A DNA stretch of 51,652 bases, from positions 1 through 51,652 of the forward strand of contig JAJYFB010000006.1 of the NCBI GenBank assembly GCA_021785495.1, given 5' to 3'. The notes beneath the pieces were generated by a model that was given only the letters and a program-made list of their open reading frames with translations, searched no databases and had not been told where the DNA came from. A program made the position numbers and the translations under genes. Positions 1,396 through 44,591 of the stretch are shown piece after piece. Numbering within the stretch: the first letter of the stretch is position 1; each line of letters opens with the position of its first letter. The DNA is from Acidobacteriota bacterium. GTDB lineage: Bacteria; Acidobacteriota; Terriglobia; Terriglobales; Acidobacteriaceae.

Positions 1396-1415
1396 CCCGC
1401 TCGAACCATCTCCCC

Positions 1416-1450
1416 AAGCGCGCCCTTCCTGCGGGAAGGGCGCGCTTTTT
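1416..1450 (+). terminator. Rho-independent terminator
   Basis: AAGCGCGCCCTTCC-TGCG-GGAAGGGCGCGCTT followed by a T run, about 20 nt after the stop codon at 1395. Confidence 0.9.
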
Positions 1451-1545
1451 GCGCCAGCCGGGTCATCACCAACCTGCGGAAGAAGAAAAAACCTCCACCT
1501 TTTGGTCGATCCTGCTGTTGCTTCCGTCCCCGTATACTGGCTGCC

Positions 1546-4280: not shown

Positions 4281-4485
4281 GGAACCTCGCTTGGGAAAAC
4301 TGGATTGGATTGGATTCGGAATTTAGAGTCAACACTGGATCGGAGTGACCATAGCAAAGCGAACCGCGCCCGGCAACCTACGCAGGGTGGAGAAAATCAT
4401 CCACCCGGAGCGCAGAGATTCCGCGCAGAATCGCGCACGGCGCAAACAAGCGCAAAAACTCCAGTCGGCGAGTCAAGCCCAGAGG

Positions 4486-4511
4486 AACTCCATCGAAAGA
4501 TGGAGTTTTTT
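4486..4511 (+). terminator. Intrinsic terminator-like hairpin in plus orientation
   Basis: AACTCCATC-GAAA-GATGGAGTT followed by TTTT; perfect 9-bp stem with a GNRA loop. Confidence 0.75.
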
Positions 4512-4565
4512 CCTCGCCGAATGCCCGTTGCCTGCGCCGCATGCAAACGGTAGGATGGCTGCGCG

Positions 4566-6818: not shown

Positions 6819-7156
6819 AGCCGCGGCTCTCCGTTGCACTCTGGGTGTTGGCTTTTTCGTCGCTCGCGCATGCCGTCATGCGCGGCAATGAGCGCGCGCG
6901 GGGCGCCGCGGTTTTCTCCGCGAACGGCTGCCTGCATTGTCACAGCATCAACCATGCGGGCGGCCATCGCGGGCCGGACCTTTCTGACGTGGGAAGACGA
7001 AAATCGAAGATCGCGATGCGCTGGCAGATCGTGCATGGAAGCCGGGCTATGCCGGCCTACGGCGATGTTCTCTCACGCGGCCAGATAGACGATCTCATCG
7101 CCTACCTGCGCTCCTGCCGCCGCGCTCCCGTCCCCGGCGGGCCCGCGCGGAACTGA
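6815..7156 (+). CDS. Small monoheme c-type cytochrome (class I-like)
   Basis: 'GAAVFSANGCLHCHSINHAGGHRGPDLSDVG...MPAYGDVLSRGQIDDLIAYLRS'. Overlaps the upstream gene by ATGA. Confidence 0.88.
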   Translation: MKPRLSVALWVLAFSSLAHAVMRGNERARGAAVFSANGCLHCHSINHAGGHRGPDLSDVGRRKSKIAMRWQIVHGSRAMPAYGDVLSRGQIDDLIAYLRSCRRAPVPGGPARN

Positions 7157-7167
7157 GCCGGTAGCGA

Positions 7168-7725
7168 TCACTTGCCGCCGCAACTCCGGCCAGGCGCAGA
7201 AGCGTTGGCTCGGCTTTCAACCGTGGGCTGGAAACCGAGCTTCATCCAGAAATCGCAGACCAGAGCGACGGCGTCTTCGCTGGCCTCGGGCGCGGCGCGC
7301 AGAACGATCTCCGGTCCCGCGTTTGCGGTTAAATCCATGGGCGCAAGGGCGATGGCGACGCACTTCTCCGGCCGGTAGGTGCAACTGGCGAGATCGTCAA
7401 TGGCCAGATGCGTCGTCGGCGTGGCGAAGACCGTACGCGGCGGCGCCATGCGATCGAGCAGCCAGAGAATTTCGAGCTTCGATTCCAGTTCGTCGGGCAC
7501 GCAGTCGATGACGAGATCGGCCTCGCGCACCGCATCCTCCAGCGTGCTGACGAAATCCACGGCGGGCAGCGCCTCGGGACCAAGCTCGCCGCGGATCGAT
7601 TCGCGCGCGTGGTGGAGGTTGGCCGGCATCACGTCCTCCAGCAGCACGCGATAGCCGGCGCGCACCGCGCCCAGCGCCAGCCAGCGGCCCAGAGGCCCGG
7701 CTCCTACGATGGCGACCGTGTTCAC
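7168..7725 (-). CDS. 3-hydroxyacyl-CoA dehydrogenase NAD-binding domain protein (short form)
   Basis: 'MNTVAIVGAGPLGRWLALGAVRAGYRVLLEDV' Rossmann fold and 'DAVREADLVIDCVPDELESKLEILWLLDRMAPPRTVFATPTT'. Lacks the C-terminal dehydrogenase domain. Confidence 0.8.
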   Translation of the reverse strand: MNTVAIVGAGPLGRWLALGAVRAGYRVLLEDVMPANLHHARESIRGELGPEALPAVDFVSTLEDAVREADLVIDCVPDELESKLEILWLLDRMAPPRTVFATPTTHLAIDDLASCTYRPEKCVAIALAPMDLTANAGPEIVLRAAPEASEDAVALVCDFWMKLGFQPTVESRANASAPGRSCGGK

Positions 7726-7731
7726 GTGGAC

Positions 7732-7914
7732 TTATTGAGCGGCCAGAGCCGTGGCAACTTCCTCGACGCTGGGCCGGGCGTTCGTCAGATGCTCGGCGAC
7801 CTTGGCGCGTTCCTCGGCAGGCAGCGTGGGCACAGTGGCCAGAATGCGGCGCAGGGTCACGGCAACATCGTCAATGTAGTTCATCAGCCGGATGGCTTCA
7901 CCGGAAAGCGGCAT
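7732..7914 (-). CDS. Small hypothetical protein (60 aa)
   Basis: MPLSGEAIRLMNYIDDVAVTLRRILATVPTLPAEERAKVAEHLTNARPSVEEVATALAAQ, preceded by GAGGAG. It is the 3' part of a longer open frame. Confidence 0.5.
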   Translation of the reverse strand: MPLSGEAIRLMNYIDDVAVTLRRILATVPTLPAEERAKVAEHLTNARPSVEEVATALAAQ

Positions 7915-8062
7915 GATTCTCCTCGCGGGTTCGGATTCCCGTTTCCATTGTAGGGCGTGAGGCCGAGGTGCGCGAAACCGGCTGCCATGCACGCCAGGGC
8001 CGCGAGACGGTCCGCAGATCGAACGGTGCGGGCGATCGGCCCTGCTGCGCCGTGCTCCATGC

Positions 8063-9232
8063 TCAATGCTCCACGCTGTATGGGCCGGGCAGCAGGCGCG
8101 GCGCGGGCGCATTTTCGGCCGCAGGCGCGGTTGCGAAGTCTGTGCGCTTCGAGTAAATACGAAACACGACGGCCAAATCGAGGACAGAGGCAACGGCTTT
8201 GCCGTCTTTGACGGCCGGCGCGAAGACAGCCTTGCCGATGACCGCGACGGCGTTCTCATCGAGGCCGAAGCCGATCGGCCGCTCGACGGCGATCCGCAGC
8301 GGTTTGCCGTCGACGCCGACCACAACGCGGTACTCGGCCATACCGGCCACGCCGTAGTCTTGCGCGAACTGGTTCGAGGCCGGTTGGGCAATGGCGAGGA
8401 TGCGCGCTTTTTGGTCCACCGCGCGCTGGCGCATCACGCCGGGATCGTCGGGCCAGGAAGCAGCCTTCGCCGCGTCCGTTTCGTAATACGGCTTCCAGAA
8501 CTCCGGCAGCGAGGCGGTCATCCGCGCATCGAGCCCCTGCGCAAAAACATGGTTGATGGCGGCTAGCAAAAGCCGGTCGGCCTGAGCCTGCGTGCGGGCC
8601 ATGTTTGTGCCTTTTTGCGGCGGAACAGCGGCAGACTCGGCTTGAACGGCCGGAAGGGATGGATGGTCCTCTGGCCGGAACTTCTTCGCGTGCTTCTGCC
8701 GTTTGGGCTTTTTCACCGGCTCGCGGGTGATTGCGATACGCACCGGTTTCTTCTTCGGCGTGATGTCGACGCGATCGACGGCCTGGGCAAGATCTTCGCC
8801 GGGCGCGGCGCCAAGAAAATGCAGGCCGTAGCGCCGGCCTTCGAGTTCAAGCTTGCGCTTGGTCAGGCGCACCTTGTCGATGCGAATCAGGCAAAGTGTG
8901 TACGATCCCTGCGGCGAATGACCCACCAGCGCGCCGCGTTCGTCAAAGGCAAGCGCATTGTCGAGCCAGCCGCTGCGCAGATAGAGATCCTTGCCGACGA
9001 GGAGCCTGCGAATCGGGCCTTCGTCGAGCGCCGGACCGATTCTTGCGCCGGAGACCGCAGATGCGGACGAATCCGTGGAAGGCGGCGCTGTCTGCTGGGC
9101 CTGCAGCCTGAGCGCGCGGATCGCGGCGATTCCGCAGAGCGGCAGCGCGATGCACAGAAAGAAGCGGAAGCAAAAGCGGCAAACCCGCACCGCGAGCGCG
9201 GCCGGAGATGATTGAGAGCGTGCGATTGGCAT
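8063..9232 (-). CDS. TonB C-terminal-like (energy transducer type) protein
   Basis: 'EYRVVVGVDGKPLRIAVERPIGFGLDENAVAVIGKAVFAPAVKDGKAV' resembles TonB_C. N-terminal membrane segment. Confidence 0.65.
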   Translation of the reverse strand: MPIARSQSSPAALAVRVCRFCFRFFLCIALPLCGIAAIRALRLQAQQTAPPSTDSSASAVSGARIGPALDEGPIRRLLVGKDLYLRSGWLDNALAFDERGALVGHSPQGSYTLCLIRIDKVRLTKRKLELEGRRYGLHFLGAAPGEDLAQAVDRVDITPKKKPVRIAITREPVKKPKRQKHAKKFRPEDHPSLPAVQAESAAVPPQKGTNMARTQAQADRLLLAAINHVFAQGLDARMTASLPEFWKPYYETDAAKAASWPDDPGVMRQRAVDQKARILAIAQPASNQFAQDYGVAGMAEYRVVVGVDGKPLRIAVERPIGFGLDENAVAVIGKAVFAPAVKDGKAVASVLDLAVVFRIYSKRTDFATAPAAENAPAPRLLPGPYSVEH

Positions 9233-15975: not shown

Positions 15976-16410
15976 ATGTCATTCGTGGTCTGGAATGATC
16001 GTATCAGCGTTGAGGTAGAGGAACTGGACGCCGATCACAAAAAGATGGTGGAGATGATCAACGACCTCTACGACGCGATCCTGGCAGGCAATGGCCGCAA
16101 GAATCTCGATCGTCTTCTCGACCGGCTGGTCGATTACACGCGCTACCACTTTGCCCGCGAGGAGGCCTGGATGGAGCGCATTGGCTTTCCGGATTTGGCA
16201 GCGCACAAGCAGGAACACGAGAAGATGGCGGCGTGGATCAACACGGCCTGGCGCGATTACCACAGCAACACGGCCATGGCTCCCTCGCTCGAAACCATGA
16301 ACTTGCTGAAGGATTGGCTCTTCGGGCACATTCTCGGCTCGGACCAGAAATATGCGGCGTTCCAGAGGGAGCGCGTGATCCAGGGAAGCCGTGCTGCAGC
16401 AACGCCGTAA
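15976..16410 (+). CDS. Bacteriohemerythrin
   Basis: 'FVVWNDRISVEVEELDADHKKMVEMINDLYDA', 'YTRYHFAREEAWM', 'AAHKQEHEKM', 'LLKDWLFGHILGSDQKYAAF': full hemerythrin His/Glu/Asp pattern. Confidence 0.93.
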   Translation: MSFVVWNDRISVEVEELDADHKKMVEMINDLYDAILAGNGRKNLDRLLDRLVDYTRYHFAREEAWMERIGFPDLAAHKQEHEKMAAWINTAWRDYHSNTAMAPSLETMNLLKDWLFGHILGSDQKYAAFQRERVIQGSRAAATP

Positions 16411-17827: not shown

Positions 17828-18337
17828 ATGGATACGTGGAAATTTCTTCGCGCCGCACTCCTGTTTGCGATGGCCTTCTGCGCGCTGGCCGCGCAGGCGC
17901 AGAGCTTGCGGCCCTTCGCGCAACAGCACCGAGCGGCCAAGGCCGAGGCGGTCACCTATCTCTTCCCCGAACAATGGACCGTCGCCGCCGGGAAGCCTGT
18001 TTGGGTCGCGCTGCACTTCCGCGTCGCGCCGGGGCTGCACATCAACTCGCACACGCCCGCGGACGATTTCCTGATCCCTACCACGTTTTCGATCCCTGCG
18101 GGCGCCGGCGTGCGGCTTCTCGATGCAAGCTATCCGGCAGGAACCATCACGGTGCTTGCCGCCGATCCCGGCACAAAGCTGAGCGTCTACGCCGGCGAGT
18201 TCATCCTCCGCGTGCGCATCGAGGCCGCGGCGGGCAACCACCTGGTCGAGGGTAAATTGCGCTATCAGGCCTGCGACAACAACCAGTGCATGCCAGCCGA
18301 AACCGCTGTCGCCGTTCTCGACGTGATCGGCCGCTGA
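17828..18337 (+). CDS. Stand-alone DsbD N-terminal (alpha)-like domain protein
   Basis: Signal peptide; 'VWVALHFRVAPGLHINSHTP...DDFLIPTTF'; 'GKLRYQACDNNQCMPAETAVAVLDV' with the paired Cys of DsbD-alpha. Confidence 0.75.
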   Translation: MDTWKFLRAALLFAMAFCALAAQAQSLRPFAQQHRAAKAEAVTYLFPEQWTVAAGKPVWVALHFRVAPGLHINSHTPADDFLIPTTFSIPAGAGVRLLDASYPAGTITVLAADPGTKLSVYAGEFILRVRIEAAAGNHLVEGKLRYQACDNNQCMPAETAVAVLDVIGR

Positions 18338-18692: not shown

Positions 18693-19277
18693 ATGAAGCA
18701 CATCGTTCCATCCGCCCTCGTGTTTCTGATGGCGGCAGTTGCGGCGCAGGCAGGAACCATTCACGGTAAAGTTACGGGCGCCAAGGGCGCGTCCGTGGTT
18801 TACGTCGACGCCATCCCCGGCAAAACCTTCCCCGCGCCCGCGCAACATGCGGCGATGGACCAGAAAGGCCTGATGTTCGAGCCGCATCTTCTGGCCGTTC
18901 AGAAGGGAACCACGGTGGACTTCAAGAACGAGGACAGCGTGGAGCACAACGTGTTCTGGCCCTCGATCAGCGGCAACAAGAGCCTGGGCCACAACATGGG
19001 CACATGGCCGCGCGGCCAGCAGCGCAGCTTCAAGTTCGACGCGGTCGGCATCGTGCCGCTGCTGTGTAACGTGCACCCGGACATGTCCGGCTTCATCGTC
19101 GTTTCGCCGACGCCCTACTTCGCCATCACCAATGCCGCGGGCGTTTTCACCATCGCCAACGTTCCCAACGGGACGTACAAGCTGACGGGCTGGAACGAGC
19201 GCAACAAGATGCGCACCACCACGGTGGATGTGACGGTCTCAGGCGACGCCACGGCGACCATCGCGCTGGCCAAGTAA
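18693..19277 (+). CDS. Cupredoxin (plastocyanin-like) with carboxypeptidase-regulatory-like C-terminal domain
   Basis: Signal peptide; 'SVEHNVFWP' His and 'LLCNVHPDMSGFIVV' C-x2-H-x2-M type-1 copper ligands. AGGAGG RBS. Confidence 0.85.
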   Translation: MKHIVPSALVFLMAAVAAQAGTIHGKVTGAKGASVVYVDAIPGKTFPAPAQHAAMDQKGLMFEPHLLAVQKGTTVDFKNEDSVEHNVFWPSISGNKSLGHNMGTWPRGQQRSFKFDAVGIVPLLCNVHPDMSGFIVVSPTPYFAITNAAGVFTIANVPNGTYKLTGWNERNKMRTTTVDVTVSGDATATIALAK

Positions 19278-19290
19278 GCCACGGACAACC

Positions 19291-19316
19291 CGCCGCGGGC
19301 CGAAGCGCCCGCGGCG
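19291..19316. other. Intercistronic stem-loop
   Basis: CGCCGCGGGC-CGAAGC-GCCCGCGGCG, perfect 10-bp stem, 14 nt after the cupredoxin stop. No U tract. Confidence 0.75.
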
Positions 19317-19356
19317 CAACCAAAAGCCCGGCGACGGGCGGAGAAGCAGCCGGCAG

Positions 19357-21330
19357 ATGCTGAAGCGATACGAAAACAAAACGGTCGATGCGGGCTGGCT
19401 GCACAGCAATTTTCCGTGCATGATGGCCTGCCCGGCGCACACCAACGCGGGCCGGTACGTGGCGCTGATCGCCGAAGGCAAGTACGAGGAGGCCTATCGC
19501 TACGCACGCGATCCGAATCCGCTGGCCAGCATCTGCGGGCGGGTCTGCGCGCATCCCTGCGAGACGGCCTGCCGCCGCGGCGCCATCGACCGCCCGGTTT
19601 CGATCCGGGCGCTGAAGCGATTTCTGACCGAGCGCTATGGTCCCGAATCGCGCCACCCGGCCGACGTGTACGCGGGCCGCGCCCAAAAGCGGCTGCCGTA
19701 CAAGGTCGCCATCGTGGGCGCCGGCCCGGTCGGACTGGCGGCGGCTCACGATCTGGCCCTGATGGGCTACGCGGTGACGCTCTTCGAGGCCGCGCCGGTG
19801 GCCGGTGGAATGCTTTGCCTGGGCCTGCCCGAGTACCGGCTGCCGCGCAGCGTGGTGCAGGCGCAGGTGCGCGAGATTCTGGCCGCCGGCGAGATTACGC
19901 TCAAGCTCAACCAGGCGGCGGGACGCGACTTCACCGTCGCCGGGCTGCGCAGCCAGGGCTTCGACGCCGTGCTGCTGGCCGTCGGCGCGCATCAGAGCCG
20001 CGATCTCTCGATTCCCGGCGTCGATCTGGACGGCGTGCACAAGGGCATCGAATTTCTGCTCAACGTGAATCTGGGCTACCGGTTCACGATCGGCAAAAAA
20101 GTTCTGGTGATCGGCGGCGGCAACGTCGCCATGGACGTGGCCCGTTCGGCGGCGCGCGAGGTGGTGCGCCAGCACGCTGCGGGCGTCGAAGAGCAGGAGC
20201 CGGTGCAGGCGAACGTGAACGCCGTCGCCGCCAGGGAAATGATGGACGTTTCGCTCTCCGCGCTGCGTCTGGGCGCGCAGGAGGTGCATCTGGTCTGTCT
20301 GGAAGACCGCGACCGGATGCCGGCCTCGCTCGACGAAATCGCCGAGGCCGAAGAAGAGGGTGTGATTCTGCATCCCGGCTTTGGTCCCAAGCGCGTTGTG
20401 GGCAGCGGGGGCGCGGTCGCCGGGCTCGAAGTCTTGAAAACGAAATCGCTCTTTGACGCCGACAAGCGCTTCCATCCCACCTTCTACGAGGGAAGCGAGA
20501 CCCTGTTCGAGTGCGACACGCTCATCATGGCCATCGGTCAGGCGCCGCGGCTGGATTTTCTCCAGCCCGAGGACGGCGTGGAGATCTCGCGCCGGGGACT
20601 GATCGCGGTCGATCCGCGCACGCTGATGACCTCGGCCGCCGGCGTCTTTGCCGGTGGAGACTGCGCCTTCGGGCCGCGGCTGATCATCGATAGCGTGGCC
20701 GACGGCAAGCGCGCGGCCATGGGCATCGACGCCTATCTGCGCGGGACAAGCCATCCTGAGCCGGTCATCGAGGTGGAGATTCTGCATCGCCACTCCATGC
20801 CGCTCGATCTGCTGGACCTGGTCCGCAACGAGCCGCCGCTGCTACCGGTCGACCGGCGCACCGGCGTCACCGAGGTCGAGACGGTCTACGACGAGCAGAC
20901 GGCGCGCGCGGAGGCTCAGCGCTGCCTGCACTGCTGGGTGAACACGATCTTCGAGGGCAATGAGGAGGACGGCAGCCGCTGCCTGCTCTGCGGCGGTTGC
21001 GTCGATGTTTGCCCGGAAAACTGTCTGGAACTGGTCAGCCTCGACCGCTTCCAGTTTGCGCCCGAAGTCGTCGAGCAGCTCGTCGCCAACGAACAACTGC
21101 TCAATGTGGAACTGGACGAAGTGCGGGCCGAAGAGCTGGGAACCATCGCCGGCTCGGTCATGCTCAAGGACGAAACGCGGTGCATCCGCTGCGGCCTCTG
21201 CGCCATGCGATGCCCGGCAGGCACGATCACCATGGAAGCCTACAACCTGATCCCGGCCGAACCGACCGGGCTGGTTTCCATTGCATCCATCGAAGCGCCC
21301 TTGCGCGCGCCGGTGGCGGACAGGAAGTGA
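19357..21330 (+). CDS. GltD-like FAD/NAD(P) oxidoreductase with N-terminal Fe-S region and C-terminal 2x[4Fe-4S] ferredoxin domain
   Basis: 'CMMACPAHTNAGRYVALIAEGKYEEAYRYARDPNPLASICGRVCAHPCETACRRG', 'VAIVGAGPVGLAAAHDLALMGYAVTLFE', 'VLVIGGGNVAMDVARSA', 'CLLCGGCVDVCPENC', 'CIRCGLCAMRCP'. Confidence 0.92.
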   Translation: MLKRYENKTVDAGWLHSNFPCMMACPAHTNAGRYVALIAEGKYEEAYRYARDPNPLASICGRVCAHPCETACRRGAIDRPVSIRALKRFLTERYGPESRHPADVYAGRAQKRLPYKVAIVGAGPVGLAAAHDLALMGYAVTLFEAAPVAGGMLCLGLPEYRLPRSVVQAQVREILAAGEITLKLNQAAGRDFTVAGLRSQGFDAVLLAVGAHQSRDLSIPGVDLDGVHKGIEFLLNVNLGYRFTIGKKVLVIGGGNVAMDVARSAAREVVRQHAAGVEEQEPVQANVNAVAAREMMDVSLSALRLGAQEVHLVCLEDRDRMPASLDEIAEAEEEGVILHPGFGPKRVVGSGGAVAGLEVLKTKSLFDADKRFHPTFYEGSETLFECDTLIMAIGQAPRLDFLQPEDGVEISRRGLIAVDPRTLMTSAAGVFAGGDCAFGPRLIIDSVADGKRAAMGIDAYLRGTSHPEPVIEVEILHRHSMPLDLLDLVRNEPPLLPVDRRTGVTEVETVYDEQTARAEAQRCLHCWVNTIFEGNEEDGSRCLLCGGCVDVCPENCLELVSLDRFQFAPEVVEQLVANEQLLNVELDEVRAEELGTIAGSVMLKDETRCIRCGLCAMRCPAGTITMEAYNLIPAEPTGLVSIASIEAPLRAPVADRK

Positions 21331-21830
21331 TGCCAACGATGACCACACCGACTCAAACCGACCGCCTGGAAACAGGCTACGAACTGGATCGCCGGGAGTT
21401 TTTCACCAAGCTCGGCCTGGGCTCGCTGGGCCTGGCCTCCGCCGGAGCTCTTGCGTTTTACTATCGCTATCTTTCTCCCAGCGTGCTCTTCGAGCCTTCG
21501 CCGATCGTCAACGCGGGCCCGCTCGATCGTTATCCGGCCGGCTCGGTCACGCTCGATGTCGATTCGGCGATCTATCTGGTTCATATCGCCGAGGGCTACT
21601 TTTCCCTCAGTGCCATTTGCACCCATCTGGGCTGCATGACGGCCTGGAAGCCCGAGCTGAACATGATCGCCTGCCCCTGCCACGGCAGCCGCTTCAACCG
21701 CGAGGGGCAGAAACTGGCGGGACCGGCGCCCAAGCCCCTGCCCTGGCTGAAAACCTGGCTCAGCGACGATGGAGAACTCATGGTCGATCGCTCCGTAACG
21801 ATTCCACAGCTCCAGTTTCTGAGGGTATAG
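21330..21830 (+). CDS. Rieske 2Fe-2S protein
   Basis: 'LDRREFFTKLGLGSLGLASAGALAFYYRYL' N-terminal anchor; 'CTHLGCMTAW' and 'CPCHGSRFNREGQ' cluster-binding boxes. Start overlaps the upstream stop (TGATG). Confidence 0.95.
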   Translation: MPTMTTPTQTDRLETGYELDRREFFTKLGLGSLGLASAGALAFYYRYLSPSVLFEPSPIVNAGPLDRYPAGSVTLDVDSAIYLVHIAEGYFSLSAICTHLGCMTAWKPELNMIACPCHGSRFNREGQKLAGPAPKPLPWLKTWLSDDGELMVDRSVTIPQLQFLRV

Positions 21831-21833
21831 AAG

Positions 21834-22625
21834 ATGCCGAGTCCCATCGCAACCGCGCTCGACAGACTCGAACGTACACGGGTCTGGCGATCCATCTTTC
21901 GCAGCGGCAAGGGCCGCAGCACGCTCCACAATGCGCTGGTCATCCAGCAGAGCGTCTTTCTGCACCTGTTTTCCGTGAAAGTCCGCAAACGGATGCTCAG
22001 CCTCGGCGCCACGTGGTACCTGGGCACGCTGACGCTGGCCACGTTTCTCCTGCTGGTCGTCACCGGCGTCCTGCTGATGCTTTACTACCATCCCTCGGTG
22101 CCGCAGGCCTACACGGACGTCAAGGATCTTCAGTTTGTCGTTTCGTCGGGCCTGTTTTTGCGCAATCTGCACCGCTGGTCGGCGCACGCCATGGTCTTTC
22201 TGGCTTTTGCGCACATGTTTCGCGTCTTCTACCGGGGCGCCTACCGGCCGCCGCGTGAATTCAACTGGGTGGTTGGCGTGGTGCTGCTTTTGATCACGCT
22301 GCTGCTCAGCTACACCGGCTATCTGCTGCCCTGGGACCAGCTCGCCTACTGGGCGATCACGGTCGGAACGAATATCTCCTCGGCCGTGCCGCTGGTTGGC
22401 GACAAGATTCGCTTTCTGCTGCTGGGCGGCCATTTCGTCAACGCCAATGCGCTGCTGCGCTTCTACGTGCTGCACTGCGTGATTCTGCCGCTCAGCGCGG
22501 TCCTCTTTCTGGCCGTGCATTTCTGGCGGATTCGCAAGGACGGCGGCCTGTACGTGCGGGAAAGCGAGCCCGGCGCGGCCGAAGCTGCGCAAACATCGAC
22601 AACCGAGGAGCGGGAAAAACCATGA
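21834..22625 (+). CDS. Cytochrome b N-terminal domain protein (b6-type)
   Basis: '[63 protein letters not shown]' and '[28 protein letters not shown]' heme-ligand helices. Confidence 0.95.
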
Positions 22626-23326
22626 CACCCCCCAAAGATTTCACGGCCGCGGTCGGATCGGACATGCGCGTCGCGCCACGCCGCGTGCTCTTTGTCACGC
22701 GGCGCACCTCGCCGCAGGTCAAACTCCACGACGAGGAAAGAGTCCAGACTTTTCCCGAGGTTCTGGTGCGGGCGCTGCTGGCCGTCGAGTGCCTGGCCAT
22801 TGCGCTTGTGCTCATGTCGCTGTTTTTCAACGCGCCGCTCGAAGGCATCGCCAACCCCACGAACACGCCCAATCCGGCCAAGGCGCCGTGGTACTTCCTC
22901 GGCCTGCAGGAGCTGCTGCACTACTTTCCGCCCATCGTCGCCGGCGTGCTGATTCCCGGCGTGCTGATTACCGCGCTGCTGGTGATTCCCTACTTCGACA
23001 TCAACATTGAAGCCGAGGGATTTTTTCTCAGAAACCGCCAGCGCCGTCTTCTTGTCTCGATGGGCCTGTCGGCGGCCTTCGCGGTCTTTCTCCTGTTCTT
23101 CGATGTCTACGTGGCGCTGCCGGCCGTCGCCGTCATGGCCGGACTGATGCTGCTGGCCGCCGCCAGTTCTCCTCAATCGCCCAACCGCTTCCGGCGTTAT
23201 CTCGCGTTACGGCCGGTTTCCTGGTGGATCATGACCTGGTTTCTTTTTGAAATGGTGGTTCTCACGGCAGTGGGCACATTTTTCCGCGGTCCCGGCTGGT
23301 CGTGGGTGTGGCCCTGGAGGAGCTGA
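22622..23326 (+). CDS. Cytochrome b C-terminal domain protein (subunit IV-like)
   Basis: '[36 protein letters not shown]' Qo-region signature and TM helices. 4-nt overlap with cytochrome b. Confidence 0.92.
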
Positions 23327-25387
23327 ATGCAGACGAACAAGACAGGATTTCTCTCTTCGATCCGGGCCTTTGTCCGCGACCCGTTCCGCATGTTCGGCAT
23401 GGTCAGCGTGATTCTGCTGCTGTTGCTGACCATCGCGCCGGCCAAGGATTACTTCAGCCAGTGGCGCGGCTATCAGCGGCAGTATCTGCGCTTCATCGGC
23501 TCGCGCGGCGACGCGGTTACGCTGCGCCGCCACTTCACCGGCGGCATTCAGCAGATCTGGATTCCGAAGCTGGATGTTGTCGACCGCTGCCAGAGCTGTC
23601 ACGTCGGTCTTGCGGAAGCCAGCCTTGCCGACGTCAAGGAGCAGCCGTTCCGCGCCCATCCGCCGATTCCCCACAAACTCACCGAATTTGGCTGCACCAT
23701 GTGCCATCGCGGCCAGGGCGCGGCGACCACCGTCGAAGAGGCGCACCATAGCGAGATGGCCGGCGAGGAACCGATCCTTCCGGCGCGCTACATCGAGTCC
23801 TCCTGCGGCCAGTGCCATCATGAACCGCTTGAAGGCGCGCCCAAGCTCAATCGCGGCCGCGTCGCGCTCGCGCGTTACGGCTGCGTGCATTGCCACACCA
23901 TCGCCCTGCCCGAGGGCTCGACCATGCAGGCTACCGACAATCCGCCGCCGCTCTCGCACATCGCCGACAAGACCACACGCGAGTGGATCTATGCGTGGCT
24001 CAAGGATCCGGCCAGCTACTCGGCCACGGCCACCATGCCCAACTTCCAGTTGAGCGACGCCGACGCCGGCGACATCTCGGCCTTCCTCATCGCCAACAGC
24101 ACGCCCCAGCCCGGCGACACCATCGCGCCTCCGGCCGCGTCGGGCGACGCGGCATCCGGCTCCGACGCCGGAGCCAGCCTCTACGGAGAATCCTTCTGCG
24201 CCTCCTGCCACGCCACCCAGAACGAGGCGGGCAACCTGGTGGGCGGCGACCTGGGCCCTGAGCTGACGAATGTCGGCGGCAAGGTGAAGCCGGGATGGCT
24301 CATGGCCTGGATGCGCGATCCGCAAAAATATGACCCGCAGACGCCCATGCCGCAGTACCGCTGGACCGATCCGCAGCTCAAGCTGATCGTTTCCTACGTC
24401 GAGGGCAAGACCGATCCCGATTTCCTGGCCAACGTGCATCTGCAGCCGGCGACCAAGGCGCAGATCGCCCACGGCAAAAAGCTGGTCATCGAGTACGGTT
24501 GCGCCTCCTGCCACGTGATCGCCGGCGTTCCCAAGCCCGACAACTTCGCGCCCGAACTGAGCCGCATCGGCAGCAAGCCCGTCGTGCAGCTTGTCTTTCT
24601 GCCGGGCATGAAGCACACACTGCCCGCCTATCTTGAGCAGAAGATCCGGCAGCCGCGCTCCTTTGGGCCGTCGCTGCACATGCCGCGCTACAACTTCAAC
24701 GCGGGCCAGATCGAAGACCTGACCACCGCGCTGCTCTCGCTCACGGACCGCAGCTTCAGCCTGCCGGCCAGCCTGCAGGTTCCCGCCGTGCGCGAAACCA
24801 GCTACCAGCCGGCGGGCCAGGCAGGCCAGTTGATGGCCAGCCTCAACTGCCAGAGCTGCCATCGCATCAACGGCCATGGCGGCACGATGGCCCCGGATCT
24901 GAGCTGGGAGGGATCGTCCGTGCAACGCGCATGGCTCGACAACTTCCTGAAAAATCCGAACACGCTGCGCCCAACGCTGATCCGGCGCATGCCCCGGTTC
25001 AACCTCACCGATGCGGAACGCACCACGCTGACCGATTACATCCTGACCGTTTACCAGACGCCGGCCTTCGATCGCGACGCGATGCCGCTCGCCGGCTACC
25101 CGCCCCAACTGATCGAGCAGGGACGCCAGCTCTTCTATTCGAAGTACGACTGCCAGTCCTGTCACATGGTGAACCCGAATGTCGACAAGGGATACATCGG
25201 GCCGATGCTGACGCATGTGGGCGCGCGTTTGAATGCCGCCTGGATCTTCCACTATTTGAAGGATCCGCAGGCGCTGCGGCCCGGAACCATCGAGCCCAAC
25301 CAGCACATGAGCGATGACGACGCCCGTGCGCTGACGGCATTCCTCATGGCGCAGAAGTCCGGAGCCGGACAGGGGGCGAACCAATGA
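23327..25387 (+). CDS. Octaheme membrane-anchored c-type cytochrome
   Basis: Eight CxxCH motifs (CQSCH, CTMCH, CGQCH, CVHCH, CASCH, CASCH, CQSCH, CQSCH). N-terminal TM 'FGMVSVILLLLLTIAPA'. Start abuts the upstream stop. Confidence 0.92.
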   Translation: MQTNKTGFLSSIRAFVRDPFRMFGMVSVILLLLLTIAPAKDYFSQWRGYQRQYLRFIGSRGDAVTLRRHFTGGIQQIWIPKLDVVDRCQSCHVGLAEASLADVKEQPFRAHPPIPHKLTEFGCTMCHRGQGAATTVEEAHHSEMAGEEPILPARYIESSCGQCHHEPLEGAPKLNRGRVALARYGCVHCHTIALPEGSTMQATDNPPPLSHIADKTTREWIYAWLKDPASYSATATMPNFQLSDADAGDISAFLIANSTPQPGDTIAPPAASGDAASGSDAGASLYGESFCASCHATQNEAGNLVGGDLGPELTNVGGKVKPGWLMAWMRDPQKYDPQTPMPQYRWTDPQLKLIVSYVEGKTDPDFLANVHLQPATKAQIAHGKKLVIEYGCASCHVIAGVPKPDNFAPELSRIGSKPVVQLVFLPGMKHTLPAYLEQKIRQPRSFGPSLHMPRYNFNAGQIEDLTTALLSLTDRSFSLPASLQVPAVRETSYQPAGQAGQLMASLNCQSCHRINGHGGTMAPDLSWEGSSVQRAWLDNFLKNPNTLRPTLIRRMPRFNLTDAERTTLTDYILTVYQTPAFDRDAMPLAGYPPQLIEQGRQLFYSKYDCQSCHMVNPNVDKGYIGPMLTHVGARLNAAWIFHYLKDPQALRPGTIEPNQHMSDDDARALTAFLMAQKSGAGQGANQ

Positions 25388-26148
25388 AGGCGCATCTGAT
25401 GAAGAAAACTCCATGGCTTTCCGGGCTGTTTGCTTCAGCCGTCTGCGCGGCCGCCGTCCTTTGCGCGGGATGCGGCCCGCGGCAAGCATCGGCTCCCGCG
25501 CTCAAGGCCAAGGCCACCGGCTCGGCCATCGTCGTCGTCAGCGGCGACAAGCAGTTGGGATCGCCCGGCTCCGCGCTGCCGCAGCCGCTGATCGTGCAAG
25601 TCAACGACGACCAGGGCAACGCCGTGACCGGCGCCAGGGTCGAACTCTCCGGCCCCAAGGGCGTCCTCTTCGATCCGGCAGAGGTGCTCACCGACGACAA
25701 CGGGCAGGCCACTGTCAAAGTAAGGCTGGCCGGCGTCTCGGGCCGCTACGAGTTGACGGCCGCTTCGCAGGACGCGCACGGAAAGAGCTTCGACATTCCG
25801 GTCGCGGAGTATGCGGCCGGTTATCAACAGCAGGTCGGCTACAAGATCGACGCAAAATACTGCTCGCGCTGCCACGATGAGGAATCGACCACCGAGCAGG
25901 TTTCCAACTACGACAATCTCGCCGTGCCGCCCCACGCTTTTTCGAACGGCGGCGTCTACAACAAGCTCTCCGGCTCCGATCTGGCCGCCATCATCGCACA
26001 TGGCGGCCCGGCGATGAACCGCTCCGCCTTGATGCCGCCCTACGGTTGGACACTCACCAAACCGGAGATTCAGGCCGTGATCGCCTACATCCGGCTGGTC
26101 TCCGATCCGCCGTACGCGGCGCCGGGAGTCGGGTATGCGAATCGCTAG
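25384..26148 (+). CDS. Ig-like domain monoheme cytochrome lipoprotein
   Basis: Lipobox-like 'AVLCAGCGPRQ'; Big_1-like 'QPLIVQVNDDQGNAVTGARVELSGPKG...TDDNGQATVKVRLAGVSGRYELTA'; heme motif CSRCH. ATGA overlap with the upstream gene. Confidence 0.85.
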   Translation: MKAHLMKKTPWLSGLFASAVCAAAVLCAGCGPRQASAPALKAKATGSAIVVVSGDKQLGSPGSALPQPLIVQVNDDQGNAVTGARVELSGPKGVLFDPAEVLTDDNGQATVKVRLAGVSGRYELTAASQDAHGKSFDIPVAEYAAGYQQQVGYKIDAKYCSRCHDEESTTEQVSNYDNLAVPPHAFSNGGVYNKLSGSDLAAIIAHGGPAMNRSALMPPYGWTLTKPEIQAVIAYIRLVSDPPYAAPGVGYANR

Positions 26149-26246
26149 GTGGCGAGCCTGCGCCGCCGGATGCGGCCAGGAACAAGCGCCGCGCCTTGCG
26201 ATTGAGGCTGGCGATCACTCTTGATCCAGTTTCGTTTGAAAATTTT

Positions 26247-26280
26247 CGGCTTCGATCCGCGGTGACGCGGATCGAAGCCG
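26247..26280. other. Perfect 15-bp intercistronic stem-loop with GTGA loop
   Basis: CGGCTTCGATCCGCG-GTGA-CGCGGATCGAAGCCG, 99 nt downstream of the lipoprotein stop and 40 nt upstream of the porin ATG. No U tract. Confidence 0.85.
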
Positions 26281-26320
26281 GAATGGCGAATACAAAAATT
26301 GTCAAATTCAAGGAGGACCA

Positions 26321-27691
26321 ATGAAGCATTGTTCTTTGGGGACCAGCGTAGCGTTATCGATTGCCGCGCTTGCGGTCATAAGCGGCCTTGCGCCGCGCCG
26401 CGCCATGGCTCTGCCGAGCTATGCGCGCCAAACCGGGCTGCCGTGCAGCGGCTGCCATTACAACCCGCCGGAGTTGAATCCCGCCGGCCGTCTGTTCAAA
26501 CTGCTGGCCTTCACCGACAGGACGGAAAACAGCACCGTTCCCGCACCGCCCGCCGACAAGCAGCGCCCCGCGCTTCAGATGCTGCAAACGCTGCCTCTGG
26601 GCGCATGGTTCGAGGTCTCTTCGACCAGCACCAAGAAGGCCCAGCCCGGCACGCAGAACGGCAACTTTGAATTTCCGCAGGACATCTCCCTGTTCCTGGC
26701 CGGCGCATGGGCCGATCACCTGGGCAGTTTCCTGCAGGTCACCTACAACGCGCAAGACGACCATTTCGGCATGGATAATACGGACATTCGGTACGCAAGA
26801 CAGACCAAAGTGCAGGGCAAAAATCTGATTTATGGCGTCATGTTCAATAATAATCCGACCCTCGAAGACGTCTGGATGACCCTGCCGAACTGGGGCTATC
26901 CCTTCGTCGCCAGCGATTCGGCGCCTACGCCGGCGGCCTCGGCCATCGTGCAGGGCAAGCTCGCGCAGGATGTCGCCGGCTTTGGCGGCTACACCATGTG
27001 GAACAACCATCTTTACGGTGCCGCGACCTTCTACCGTTCGGACCACATCGGCTCGTCGCAGCCGAACACCGGCGCCGGCGCCGCGTATAACATCAGCGGA
27101 CTGGCTCCGTACTGGCGGCTTGCCTACCAGAACTCGGGACGCACCAACGTTGTCGAAGCGGGCTTCTACGGAATGCACATGGCGTCGTTTCCCGGCAGCG
27201 CGTCGGGCGCGAATTTTAACGGCCCCACGGACAACTACACGGACTTCGGCCCGGACTTTGAGTGGGATCGCACGCTTGGCCGCGACGTGCTCTCCGTCCG
27301 CGGCACGTATCTGCGCGAAAATTCAACGCTCGACGCCAGCGCCGCCGCCGGCAATGCCTCGCCGGGCAATCATCACCTGAACACCGGCAACGCCAACGTC
27401 GAGTATCACTACGGTAACCGGCTCTCCGGCGCTTTCGGCTGGTTCCTCACCTCGGGCACAGCCGATGCAACGCTGTATGCTCCCGCCGCCATCTCCGGCA
27501 GCGCAAACGGCGGCCCGCGAAGCGAAGGTTACAGCGCCAACTTCTCCTACTGGCCGGTGCAGAACGTCGATCTGGCCTTTCAATACACCGGCTATACCCG
27601 CTTCAACGGCGGCAACACAAACTACGATGGCAGCGGCCGGAACGCTTCGGACAACAACACGGCCTATCTCCTGATGCGTTTTGTCTTCTGA
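26321..27691 (+). CDS. Fused monoheme cytochrome c - outer-membrane porin
   Basis: Signal peptide, then 'ALPSYARQTGLPCSGCHYNPPELNPAGRLFKL' (single CxxCH), then about 400 residues of beta-barrel-like sequence ending 'AYLLMRFVF'. RBS AAGGAGG. Confidence 0.8.
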   Translation: MKHCSLGTSVALSIAALAVISGLAPRRAMALPSYARQTGLPCSGCHYNPPELNPAGRLFKLLAFTDRTENSTVPAPPADKQRPALQMLQTLPLGAWFEVSSTSTKKAQPGTQNGNFEFPQDISLFLAGAWADHLGSFLQVTYNAQDDHFGMDNTDIRYARQTKVQGKNLIYGVMFNNNPTLEDVWMTLPNWGYPFVASDSAPTPAASAIVQGKLAQDVAGFGGYTMWNNHLYGAATFYRSDHIGSSQPNTGAGAAYNISGLAPYWRLAYQNSGRTNVVEAGFYGMHMASFPGSASGANFNGPTDNYTDFGPDFEWDRTLGRDVLSVRGTYLRENSTLDASAAAGNASPGNHHLNTGNANVEYHYGNRLSGAFGWFLTSGTADATLYAPAAISGSANGGPRSEGYSANFSYWPVQNVDLAFQYTGYTRFNGGNTNYDGSGRNASDNNTAYLLMRFVF

Positions 27692-27839: not shown

Positions 27840-28259
27840 CTAGACGACGCCGTGTTCGCGCAGCCACGGGCCGTATTGCTGGTCGATGGTCTCCACATGG
27901 TGGAGAAGGTTGCGATGGAGGTTACACAGAAAGGCGCGCAGTTCGATGCCTTCGCCGTATTGCAACCGATGCGCCGTCTGAAGAAGATCCGCGAGAAGGC
28001 GGTGGTGCTCGACGCGATGCGCTTCAAGACCGGCAAAGCCGGTTTGCTCCATGAGCTGCTCCTCGCTCCAGAAGTGCATCCGGGTAAATTCGATGTACTC
28101 GTCCAGCAGCTTGCTGATTTGTTCCTGCCCGGATCCATGCACCAGGGCCAAACGCAGTTCGTTGATCGCATCCATCAAAATGCCGTGCTGATCGTCCATC
28201 GCCCGCACCCCGATAGTGCAGGAGTGGCGCCAAGTCAGTAGAGTCACGTTTTCCTCCAC
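27840..28259 (-). CDS. Bacteriohemerythrin-like protein
   Basis: 'LTWRHSCTIGVRAMDDQHGILMDAINELRLAL', 'FTRMHFWSEEQLM', 'LEAHRVEHHRLLADL', 'LHRNLLHHVETIDQQYGPWL'. Confidence 0.9.
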   Translation of the reverse strand: MEENVTLLTWRHSCTIGVRAMDDQHGILMDAINELRLALVHGSGQEQISKLLDEYIEFTRMHFWSEEQLMEQTGFAGLEAHRVEHHRLLADLLQTAHRLQYGEGIELRAFLCNLHRNLLHHVETIDQQYGPWLREHGVV

Positions 28260-30007: not shown

Positions 30008-30655
30008 TCAGGATGGATTGAAGGTGATGATACCTTGCTGCGATGCGATGGCGACCGCTTCCGTGCGGTCGCTGGCTGCGAGCTTGGCGAAGATATGCAC
30101 GACATGCGAGCGGACGGTAAACTGGCTGATCATCAGCACGTGAGCGATTTCTTTATTGGTCAGTCCTTTCGCAATCATGTCGAGTACTTCCAGTTCTCTG
30201 GGGCTCAGACCGGAACGCTCCTGGCGTTCGGCGATGCGGGCCGCAATGCCCTGGGGAAAATAGGCGCCGCCGGCGGCCACTGTGCGAATCGCCTCCAGGA
30301 TTTGCGCGCCGCTCGCGTCCTTTGTGATGTATCCATGCGCGCCCAGCCGGGCCGTCTGGAAGATTTCCTCGTCGAAGTTGAAACTGGAAAGAACCAGAAC
30401 CCTGGGAGCTTTCTGGATCGCCAGGATGGAAGGCAGGATTTCCAGGCCGGAAACCTTGGGCATGCGCAGGTCGAGAAGCACAATGTCCACGAGCGTGCGG
30501 CGAAGAAAGGCCAGCGCTTTTTCGCCGCTGTCGACGCTGCCGGAGAGCTGAAAGCCGGAATCGGTTTGCAGTAAGAGGCTCAATCCATCGCGCACAATCG
30601 GATGATCGTCCACAATGAGAATGCGGATCGGCTTTTGCTCAGAGTTGTGGTCCAC
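30008..30655 (-). CDS. NarL/LuxR-family response regulator
   Basis: 'IRILIVDDHPIVRDGLSLLL', 'DIVLLDLRMPKVSGLEIL', HTH 'LSPRELEVLDMIAKGLTNKEIAHVLMISQFTVRSHVVHIFAKL'. Confidence 0.95.
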   Translation of the reverse strand: MDHNSEQKPIRILIVDDHPIVRDGLSLLLQTDSGFQLSGSVDSGEKALAFLRRTLVDIVLLDLRMPKVSGLEILPSILAIQKAPRVLVLSSFNFDEEIFQTARLGAHGYITKDASGAQILEAIRTVAAGGAYFPQGIAARIAERQERSGLSPRELEVLDMIAKGLTNKEIAHVLMISQFTVRSHVVHIFAKLAASDRTEAVAIASQQGIITFNPS

Positions 30656-32825
30656 TCCAACCTCGTTTCCAGTTCACCATGCGGGTGATCTTGCGCCAAC
30701 AGGAGGCCAGGACGGTTTGCGGCGGGGTGGCGCGGATGTGCACGGCGGTTCCGCGCCCCGGCGCGCTGTGAATACGAAAGCTCGCGTGGATGCTCTCGGC
30801 GCGGCGCAACATGCCGCGAATGCCGAACCCCGCCGCTGCTTCGTCGACCGAAAATCCCTGTCCGTCGTCGCGAACGGCGAGCCGTACGGACGGCCTGGCG
30901 TAGATCAGTTTCAAGGAAATATGTTTCGGATGCCCGTGCCGAACCGCGTTGGCGATGGCCTCCTGCCCGATGCGATAAAGCGTATCGGCAATGCGCAGCG
31001 GCAAGGGCCGTGGTTCGCCGCTCACCGACATGGAGACGTGAATCGAGCCGCCTTGCACGATGGTGCGAGCGGCGTGTTCCAGGGCTTTGGCCAGGCCCAG
31101 TTGCTCCAGATTGCCGGGACGCATGGCGGCGATATTACGGCGTGCCTCCTGGTGTCCGGCGCGGACCATATGGACGGTCGACTCCAGCCGCGAGCGCATC
31201 TGGCTTTCCGGCGCGGCCTGGCTGCAGAGCGCCTCCAACTGGAAGCCGAGGCCCGCATAGCTCTGCGCCAGCGTGTCGTGCATCTCGAGCGCCAGCCGCT
31301 CCCGCTCTTCGACGATGGCCCGCAGTTGCGAGCGCCGGAACGAGGTGTAAGCCATCTGGACGGCGAAGGGAAGCACGACCAGGCCGATGAGCAGTTCCAA
31401 AGCATGGAGCGGATTCCACCAGGGCGGCGGCTCGATCATCTGCACATCGTCGACCGAGCGCAGAAGCAGGGCGAAGGCGGTTTCGCCGCGGGCAAAGGAG
31501 CGATCGGTGACGCAGATGCCGCGCACGCGCAACCGGCTGCCGGCCTTGAACGAGCTCAAGGTTTCAGCAAGACTGGGACTTTCGGCAATGGCCAGAAATG
31601 GCTGACTGCGGTCGACCAGCTTTAACTCGATCGAGTGCTCGCCGCGATGCTGCTCTTCGGTGAGGCGGCCTTCGGTCTCGATATACTGCGCGTCGAAGGC
31701 GCCGGTGGCCGCTTGCGCGGCGGTTACGGAGACTGGCGGCGCCGGGGCGTGCGACCAGAGTCGCCGGATCTCGGCATGATGCAGAACCGAACTGAAATCA
31801 TGCTGCTCGGAGTCGCCGCGCACCTCGACCGCATCGCCGATTTGAACGGGAGTATTTGCCGGAGGGTTGGGAATGGCGACTCCGCCTGTCGCGTCCTGCA
31901 CAAACAGGATGGGCGAGACAAGCGTGACCACGCCATCGACGGTGACCTGCGACGGCTGGTTCGGGGGCAGAAGGCGCAGATCGGCGATGGACAGAGCGTT
32001 GGGATCCGTCTTGTGGTTCGACAGATCCCGCTGCATCGGTTCCAGGAGCCGCTGCTCCGACCACAGCTCGACCGGGGCGTTGCCATATTCGCTGTACTCG
32101 GGCGCGGTTGCTCCCTTGGCGCTCAGCATGGCCTGCAGATTCTGCTCGCTGGCGGGCCGGACGCTGAGGTTTTTCCAGATGGCGCCGCTGGCGTAGGATT
32201 GCAGGCCGAACCGTCCTTCGGTCAGGCAGTTTGGCTCGCGCAGGATGGCCTTGGTGATGTCGCCGTTGGGGCTGGTGGCGATGGCGACCACGTTGCATTC
32301 GTAGGCGAGCACTTTCAGGTGGTACCAGGTGCGTGTGTGGACTCCGGAGTGAACGGGCACGGTCTGGAATTCGTGCCAGCCAAAGTCGGCCCGGCCCAGA
32401 ATCAGGGTCTCGTCGATGTCGCGCAACCCGGCGAAGTAGCCGTGATAGGAGTCTACGCCGGCCTCGTCGCCCGACGAGCGCACCAGGATGCCGGCATCGC
32501 CGGCTTCGCCCAGCAATTGAATGTCGGCTTCGACAATGTAGTTGTGCCAGCGCGGCGAACCGTTCATGATTTTGGCGCCGCGGTCGTCGGAGATATTCTG
32601 CATCGCGCCATCGATGGCTTGCCATGTGCCACCGTAGGCCTGCCATCCGCCTTGATGCAGTTGACCTCCTCCACTGCGCGGGAAGGCGTCGTGGAATTCC
32701 GGCTCCGAGCCGTTCCCGTGGCGATCAAGCCAAAGTGCAGCCGCGGCGATGCACACGACGGCGATGGCGATGGCCACGCCGACGTTCCACCCGCGCGCGC
32801 GCTTGTGCAGTCGGCGCGGTCTCAC
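30639..32825 (-). CDS. Sensor histidine kinase (HisKA_3/HATPase) with LamG/DUF1080-like and OB-like extracytoplasmic region
   Basis: 'ERERLALEMHDTLAQSYAGLGFQLEAL' H-box, 'AVRDDGQGFSVDEAAAGFGIRGMLRRAE' HATPase. 'PRWHNYIVEADIQLLGEAGDAGILVRSSGD...DSYHGYFAGL' concanavalin-like. Overlaps the response regulator. Confidence 0.9.
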   Translation of the reverse strand: MRPRRLHKRARGWNVGVAIAIAVVCIAAAALWLDRHGNGSEPEFHDAFPRSGGGQLHQGGWQAYGGTWQAIDGAMQNISDDRGAKIMNGSPRWHNYIVEADIQLLGEAGDAGILVRSSGDEAGVDSYHGYFAGLRDIDETLILGRADFGWHEFQTVPVHSGVHTRTWYHLKVLAYECNVVAIATSPNGDITKAILREPNCLTEGRFGLQSYASGAIWKNLSVRPASEQNLQAMLSAKGATAPEYSEYGNAPVELWSEQRLLEPMQRDLSNHKTDPNALSIADLRLLPPNQPSQVTVDGVVTLVSPILFVQDATGGVAIPNPPANTPVQIGDAVEVRGDSEQHDFSSVLHHAEIRRLWSHAPAPPVSVTAAQAATGAFDAQYIETEGRLTEEQHRGEHSIELKLVDRSQPFLAIAESPSLAETLSSFKAGSRLRVRGICVTDRSFARGETAFALLLRSVDDVQMIEPPPWWNPLHALELLIGLVVLPFAVQMAYTSFRRSQLRAIVEERERLALEMHDTLAQSYAGLGFQLEALCSQAAPESQMRSRLESTVHMVRAGHQEARRNIAAMRPGNLEQLGLAKALEHAARTIVQGGSIHVSMSVSGEPRPLPLRIADTLYRIGQEAIANAVRHGHPKHISLKLIYARPSVRLAVRDDGQGFSVDEAAAGFGIRGMLRRAESIHASFRIHSAPGRGTAVHIRATPPQTVLASCWRKITRMVNWKRGWSGPQL

Positions 32826-44366: not shown

Positions 44367-44591
44367 CGCGCTGGCGGAGTCAGGCTGGTGGCGAGTTGGG
44401 AACTTCGCCGCATACCCAGGAAATGACGCGGGCGCGGACAAACGGAGCCGCAAACCGAGTCGCAAACTGAGTCGATGGAGCCGCGGATGCTTTTTGCAGG
44501 CCATCGCTTACCGCCTCTGCGCGGGATGATCGCTGCATCCTTCGTCCTTTACACTGAGTCCAACTGCGAGGAGTCTGCTTTTTTGCCTGCC

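Follow-up and report, generated by a model that had tools for sequence, protein, structure and literature searches.

Do eight respiratory genes that stand in a row on an acidobacterial contig form one system and, if so, between which points of the cell envelope could that system move electrons? The question is raised by positions 18693–27691 (+ strand) of a 51,652-nucleotide stretch of DNA from Acidobacteriota bacterium (assembly GCA_021785495.1, contig JAJYFB010000006.1; hereafter the window, meaning the whole stretch), where the list of open reading frames (ORFs) holds eight frames for a cupredoxin, a nicotinamide adenine dinucleotide (phosphate) (NAD(P)) oxidoreductase (the gltD product), a Rieske protein, a cytochrome b6-like subunit, a subunit IV-like protein, an octaheme cytochrome c, a monoheme lipoprotein and a heme-bearing porin. 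This is a conserved, well-delimited gene set whose parts are of known kinds; a search of the open-access literature, which did not include most subscription papers, brought up no description of the full combination, and a full set ending in a fused porin had been equally unfamiliar to the first-pass annotation of this DNA. Rather tentatively, we propose that the set is a single, phylum-wide operon for a respiratory unit that would span the envelope from cytoplasmic NAD(P) to the cell surface. In it, NAD(P)+ reduction by a bifurcating Rieske/cytochrome b complex would be coupled to extracellular electron transfer by way of a cytochrome-porin of the Cyc2 family, and an exchangeable inner-membrane core would dock its NAD(P) module on N-terminal extensions of its membrane subunits.

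That the genes belong together is borne out by synteny. With an octaheme alignment as query, genome contigs yielded 537 relatives, of which the best 80 were retained (loci L059–L138), all from metagenome-assembled genomes (MAGs) of Acidobacteriota; these loci, picked for the highest octaheme similarity, are no random sample. When gene positions were mapped by tblastn, 49 of the 55 loci with enough flank had the complete set of eight on one strand; in the others, gltD (L093, L125), the porin (L090, L095) or more genes (L080, L117) were missing; gltD was found in 52 of the 55. Gene order in the related loci was constant (porin–cupredoxin–gltD–Rieske–b6–subunit IV–octaheme–lipoprotein) save for the placement of the porin, which is at the 3′ end solely in the window's own clade and first elsewhere. 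A coordinate search of 34 whole genomes gave a similar picture of the gene set over many families. None of the seven genes that flank the operon in the window turned up beside it in 14 relatives, save for a single weak match to prmC (L134), so the operon is a delimited unit. Synteny, together with flanking genes that do not travel with the operon, rules out a chance neighbourhood. The synteny of porin and cupredoxin with the Rieske/b genes, which had been singled out beforehand as the test of the proposal, was thus borne out, and the idea of eight genes as one evolutionary unit across Acidobacteriota is upheld. In the phylum search, some related cytochrome b occurred in 188 of 297 genomes and only about 30 genomes fell into the tight group, so that the presence of any cytochrome b says little. 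A search of plasmids with the octaheme query gave no match.

Within the window, the coordinates agree with the first-pass count of eight same-strand genes with five of seven junctions overlapping or at most 3 nucleotides long. The gltD and Rieske genes overlap by 1 nucleotide, and the b6/subunit IV and octaheme/lipoprotein pairs by 4 nucleotides each; 3 nucleotides separate Rieske from b6 and none separates subunit IV from the octaheme gene. The cupredoxin/gltD and lipoprotein/porin junctions measure 79 and 172 nucleotides, respectively. A scan for promoters and terminators yielded nothing above shuffles. Scans with Pfam and NCBIfam, together with counts of CXXCH motifs, agree with the identities first given to the parts, the porin, which no Pfam or NCBIfam model matches, being recognised by its heme motif.

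For the inner-membrane core, close counterparts could be named. The Rieske [2Fe-2S] protein (21330–21830, +; 166 residues; Pfam Rieske, 1.3e-8) has a putative Tat-type anchor with a twin-arginine (RR) motif; this motif and the Rieske boxes, CTHLGC and CPCHGSxF, are invariant in 71 of 71 homologues. Its best match in the PDB is the Kuenenia entry 9rk4 (1.7e-24); 9rk3 comes fifth (6.7e-17), behind Rieske proteins of b6f. Judging from their descriptions and numbers of chains, we take 9rk4 and 9rk3 to be Kuste4569 and Kustd1480. The protein also has an invariant Ser/Phe pair, as in Kustd1480, for which a Rieske potential of +335 mV was measured (PMC12954380). The cytochrome b6-like subunit (21834–22625, +; 263 residues; Cytochrome_B, 2.1e-45), with a predicted N-terminal cytoplasmic extension of about residues 1–56, finds its best PDB matches in b6 proteins. 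Its heme b histidines 113, 127, 214 and 229 are retained in 72–74 of 74 homologues, and the position of b6 Cys35, the heme cN ligand, holds Tyr in 68 of the 74 sequences and Phe in the other 6. His44 in the N-terminal region is conserved in 72 of 74, a lead only toward an extra b heme of the kind that the Kuenenia complexes have at the dimer centre. The subunit IV-like protein (22622–23326, +; 234 residues; Cytochrom_B_C, 1.1e-6), which likewise carries an N-terminal extension, shows five hydropathy peaks, corresponding to five predicted transmembrane helices, and reads (K)APWY at the PEWY position. The gltD product (19357–21330, +; 657 residues) is a predicted cytoplasmic Nfn/GltD-like NAD(P) oxidoreductase with flavin adenine dinucleotide (FAD) and Fe-S clusters (Pyr_redox_2, 7.6e-31; Fer4_20, 3.2e-21; Fer4), whose best PDB matches are NfnABC (9bov/9bp5) and NfnA (9n5u); 19 of its 21 cysteines are retained in at least 56 of 60 homologues, and the FAD/NAD(P) motifs are conserved.

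This composition resembles that of two complexes of Kuenenia stuttgartiensis, Kustd1480-1485 and Kuste4569-4574, which combine a Rieske protein, a four-helix b6-like cytochrome b, a five-helix subunit IV, a hexa- or octaheme c in place of cytochrome f, and an Nfn-like NAD(P) oxidoreductase with an Fe-S relay, the structural homologue of which is NfnABC 9bp5 and which was proposed to reduce NAD(P)+ by bifurcation (PMC12954380). Unlike these complexes, the operon has no HAO-like octaheme enzyme and adds a cupredoxin, a monoheme lipoprotein and a Cyc2-like porin. Compared with cytochrome b6f and bc1, the Rieske and b6/subunit IV proteins are homologous, but an octaheme c stands in place of cytochrome f or c1, and both the PEWY motif and the heme cN cysteine are missing. 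As far as sequence can tell, the core is built like, and probably works like, the NAD(P)-linked Rieske/b complexes of Kuenenia, of which it would be a variant. The label ‘undescribed electron route’ that the operon had initially been given is therefore too broad, since the core matches complexes already known from anammox bacteria (PMC12954380); for the full combination it stands as far as the papers searched go.

The link between the core and its NAD(P) module can be followed in the N termini of the two membrane subunits. In gltD-carrying loci, cytochrome b has the N-terminal stretch VWRSIFR...QQN.FLHL..VKVR and subunit IV the N-terminal stretch SD...RV.F.TRRTS.QVK, whereas the four loci without gltD (L093, L117, L119 and L125) all lack these extensions or have other sequence in their place. 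This association between extensions and gltD is a new finding of the present analysis. In b6f, the N termini of cytochrome b and subunit IV lie on the n-side and, by analogy, it is there that the flavoprotein must dock. In a tree of cytochrome b, subunit IV and Rieske sequences, the four gltD-less loci form a single clade (support 1.0), but their octaheme proteins are scattered (L093/L119, L117, L125), as are the cupredoxins and lipoproteins in those of the four that have them. Core and NAD(P) module therefore go together. The simplest reading of these trees is that the inner-membrane core, with or without the NAD(P) module, was exchanged as a cassette about three times within a constant framework of periplasmic and outer-membrane proteins.

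The proteins of that framework retain their metal-binding residues. The octaheme cytochrome c (23327–25387, +; 686 residues) is a predicted inner-membrane-anchored protein, in which an ExtS-like N-terminal region with four CXXCH motifs is followed by four cytochrome c domains (Cytochrom_C, four stretches); there are exactly 8 CXXCH in the window copy and 8 in 76 of 76 homologues. An AlphaFold2 model shows a long N-terminal helix (mean predicted local distance difference test score, pLDDT, 71.5). A PDB sequence search gave a single weak match, and Foldseek returned general cytochrome c domains only, plus a Kuenenia diheme c at low TM-score (template modelling score). The cupredoxin (18693–19277, +; 194 residues; Copper-bind, 5.4e-6; fn3_3; CarboxypepD_reg), a putative periplasmic type-1 copper protein with a C-terminal CarboxypepD-regulatory-like domain, keeps its copper ligands H85, C125, H128 and M131 in 62 of 62 homologues. 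The monoheme cytochrome c (25384–26148, +; 254 residues; Cytochrome_CBB3, 1.3e-6; Big_1, 2.1e-7) has one CXXCH in 74 of 74 and is probably a lipoprotein, with a lipobox-like motif in 44 of 77. Its N-terminal immunoglobulin-like part, unaligned in 12 mostly distant homologues (including L127–L137), is probably a later addition, judging from the alignment.

A conserved cluster that likewise unites a Rieske protein, a b-type cytochrome, a small membrane subunit, c-type cytochromes and a porin is the Geobacter extHIJKLMNOPQS cluster, associated with selenite and tellurite (PMC5877670), and the cytochrome b, the subunit IV and the octaheme N terminus of the operon match the ExtP, ExtQ and ExtS models. 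Membership in the Ext cluster was nevertheless ruled out, as all three score below the NCBIfam cut-offs (ExtP, 261.4 of 290 bits; ExtQ, 54 of 150; ExtS, 81 of 100). Unlike the window porin, ExtI has no heme motif; the published ext gene list holds no NAD(P) oxidoreductase, and the multiheme set is different.

The presumed outermost component, the porin (26321–27691, +; 456 residues), is of a known kind. Three features define Cyc2: AXPXFAR[Q/K][T/Y] some 5 residues ahead of CXXCH, PXL 4 residues behind it, and a barrel of 16 strands (PMC8406198). The window porin reads ALPSYARQT-GLP-CSGCH-YNP-PEL, which matches every motif element save for F to Y, and it ends in a C-terminal Phe. Like Cyc2 of Mariprofundus and Acidithiobacillus, it has a signal peptide, a single CXXCH near the N terminus, AXPX[F/Y]ARQT with PXL, more than 365 residues and 16 predicted strands; it differs in the F to Y change and in adjoining a Rieske/b-NAD(P) core. 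Among 59 operon porins, all have one CXXCH and the relaxed motif, and 9 have the strict one. These porins are of two kinds, close (about 55–85% identical) and distant (about 20%), with the heme segment common to both. The AlphaFold2 model of the window porin has 16 strands (mean pLDDT 64), and Foldseek matched it to general porins, among them OprO, a structural match described for Cyc2 too (PMC8406198); a PDB sequence search for the porin gave no match. The original ‘monoheme-porin’ was thus apt as to the single heme motif and the predicted porin fold, but the protein belongs with the Cyc2-like fused cytochrome-porins already described (PMC8406198). A conduit of the Mtr/Pcc type, in which a separate multiheme cytochrome sits inside a heme-less porin of about 26 strands, was ruled out, given the porin's own heme motif and 16 predicted strands.

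Earlier work lists Acidobacteriota among its hits for Cyc2 homologues (PMC9769843), and we observed Cyc2-like porins in further respiratory settings. Locus L143 (G210:C143, 4963–11386) encodes a Cyc2-like porin, a diheme c, a cupredoxin-family protein, CoxB, CoxA and CoxC, and so resembles the Acidithiobacillus rus-operon cyc2-cyc1-cup-coxBAC (PMC10654088, PMC2754497). L141 (G278) has a cupredoxin-family gene, a Cyc2-like gene, a diheme c and COX1. L139 (G007:C87, 8107–12708) and L140 (G273:C55, 3570–8609) combine a Cyc2-like porin and a Rieske protein with a cytochrome b fused to a four-CXXCH part, and have no NAD(P) module. From these arrangements it follows that, in Acidobacteriota, respiratory complexes of the inner membrane are found time and again beside Cyc2-like porins. 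In Acidithiobacillus ferrooxidans, a route from outer membrane to quinone/NAD is likewise made up of Cyc2, a blue copper protein and a bc-type complex, which the rus and petI operons encode (PMC2754497, PMC10654088). That organism has Cyc2 and bc1 in separate operons and reduces NAD by complex I in reverse, whereas a single operon in the window holds the Cyc2-like porin, the copper protein, the Rieske/b proteins and an NAD(P) module of its own.

What such a set would add to the host's respiration depends on what else the genome encodes. The host genome (2.94 Mb, 98% complete) has another Rieske gene and a cytochrome b fused to cytochrome c beside its only COX1 (L144, G000:C106, about 1390–8658, − strand), where a heme-bearing ORF may be a caa3-type subunit II, and it gave three NuoH-family matches. 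RuBisCO was not found in 11 of 14 tested genomes, the host among those 11, and the host did not yield a second Cyc2-like porin either. Given the other Rieske/b pair beside COX1, the NuoH matches and the lack of RuBisCO, the operon is not the host's basic complex III, and an ordinary complex III was ruled out by that second Rieske and cytochrome b–cytochrome c fusion.

In Rieske/b complexes, quinol oxidation gives one electron to the Rieske protein and one to the b hemes, as is established (summarised in PMC12954380). If the NAD(P) module sits on the n-side, NAD(P)H and reduced periplasmic carriers would result from forward flow, and reverse flow would make quinol from NAD(P)H and electrons from outside. 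Since reverse flow needs NAD(P)H electrons, a direct flow from Fe(II) to NAD(P)+ through one complex would not be expected, and the original suggestion of transfer ‘in either direction’ was in this respect too free. We regard as plausible, at somewhat less than an even chance, that the operon serves bifurcating menaquinol oxidation, with NAD(P)+ reduction and exit of electrons through the Cyc2-like porin to an extracellular oxidant such as Fe(III). The gene products would then make up a specialised Rieske/cytochrome b complex, the second in the cell, with a connection to the outer membrane. Menaquinol would be oxidised at the p-side site; one electron would pass from the presumably high-potential Rieske cluster to the octaheme c, on to the cupredoxin and/or the monoheme lipoprotein, and to the porin heme, which would hand it to the extracellular oxidant; in an acid setting, dissolved Fe(III) is the likeliest candidate. 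The other would travel through the b hemes to the Nfn-like flavoprotein, docked on the cytochrome b and subunit IV extensions, and reduce NAD(P)+. Fe(III) reduction is known from acidophilic Acidobacteria, and a role as ferric reductase has been suggested for Cyc2 in A. ferrooxidans under anaerobic conditions (PMC8790237). It is on account of these precedents, the mechanism, the lack of RuBisCO in the host and the separate Rieske/b and COX1 locus that we prefer exit to Fe(III).

Several points weigh against this proposal. The sequences themselves show the gene set, its ligands, homologies and synteny, and the tie between extensions and gltD; we infer that the proteins form a complex, that it bifurcates, in which order the periplasmic carriers act, which way electrons run and what the extracellular substrate is, so that the step from genes to a physical chain across the envelope is inferred throughout. 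The heme cN cysteine is replaced by Tyr or Phe in 74 of 74 sequences, unlike in Kuenenia, where heme cN was modelled, a feature that the authors do not call defining. The extension/gltD association amounts to one evolutionary contrast between two core types, the gltD-less cores being one clade. The 172-nucleotide gap before the porin makes co-transcription uncertain there in the window. With Tyr for Phe, the porin departs from the strict sequence definition, hence ‘Cyc2-like’ and not Cyc2, and its predicted structure is of moderate confidence. Finally, the Cyc2 proteins whose activity was tested oxidise Fe(II) (PMC8406198).

That last point leads to the rival that survives best, unlikely as we judge it to be, namely electron entry: the porin would oxidise extracellular Fe(II), and the cupredoxin and octaheme c would drive the Rieske/b complex in reverse at the expense of the proton gradient, making quinol from Fe(II) electrons and electrons of the low-potential side, as a compact counterpart to the uphill branch in Acidithiobacillus ferrooxidans. 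Besides the tested Fe(II) oxidases, it can draw on the pairing of Cyc2 and copper protein with oxidase and bc1 complex in Acidithiobacillus (PMC2754497), on the rus-like second locus of relative G210 (L143) and on the MAGs of several close relatives, whose isolate names, and these names only, suggest mine sites. It is harder to square with the lack of RuBisCO in 11 of the 14 tested genomes, with the host's apparent want of a second Cyc2-like porin and with the need of Rieske-side electrons for b-side partners, a need that would use up NAD(P)H, and not generate it, where heme bN carries an NAD(P) module.

It is improbable that the porin is no conduit at all, its heme being structural or sensory or serving a terminal oxidase, so that the porin would be merely co-regulated while the high-potential electron passed through the cupredoxin to an oxidase. 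The shifting position of the porin between clades and the gap that precedes it in the window would fit, as would L090 and L095, which have flank and an otherwise full set but no adjoining porin, and the cupredoxin-family proteins that adjoin COX1 in relatives too; against this, the porin is kept in the set in nearly all loci, and its heme motif is retained at about 20% overall identity. Quite improbable, finally, is NAD(P)H oxidation, in which the docked flavoprotein would feed heme bN and the quinone pool in a chain from NAD(P)H to the outer membrane without bifurcation: the parts list is identical and heterotrophic hosts may have NADH to spare, but the chain would be energetically wasteful next to the host's complex I genes, the ground on which the Kuenenia authors reject that direction (PMC12954380).

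Other genes of the window were noted in passing. Two hemerythrin-domain proteins (15994–16407, +, and 27843–28259, −) flank the operon, and neither adjoins it in the 14 relatives. A free-standing DsbD N-terminal domain protein lies upstream (17828–18334, +) and a full DsbD-like protein at 44475–46742 (+); these could possibly help cytochrome c maturation. At 4566–6815 (+), a cytochrome c554-like multiheme part is joined to TPR repeats in one protein, and at 30642–32825 (−), between a LuxR-type response regulator and a periplasmic protein of sugar-binding type, there is a histidine kinase with an N-terminal 3-keto-disaccharide hydrolase-like domain.

What has been proposed about the role of NAD(P)-linked Rieske/b complexes comes largely from anammox bacteria, organisms that do not lend themselves easily to manipulation. 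A comparable core in many families of Acidobacteriota, tied to a Cyc2-like porin, suggests a use for the high-potential electron, and the gltD-carrying and gltD-less cores in a shared framework offer a natural comparison for the role of the NAD(P) module. If the proposed electron exit is right, Cyc2-like proteins would gain a partner other than an oxidase, and abundant heterotrophs of soil and mine water could exchange electrons with iron outside the cell. Acidobacteriota with this operon may thus exchange respiratory electrons with something extracellular, probably iron.

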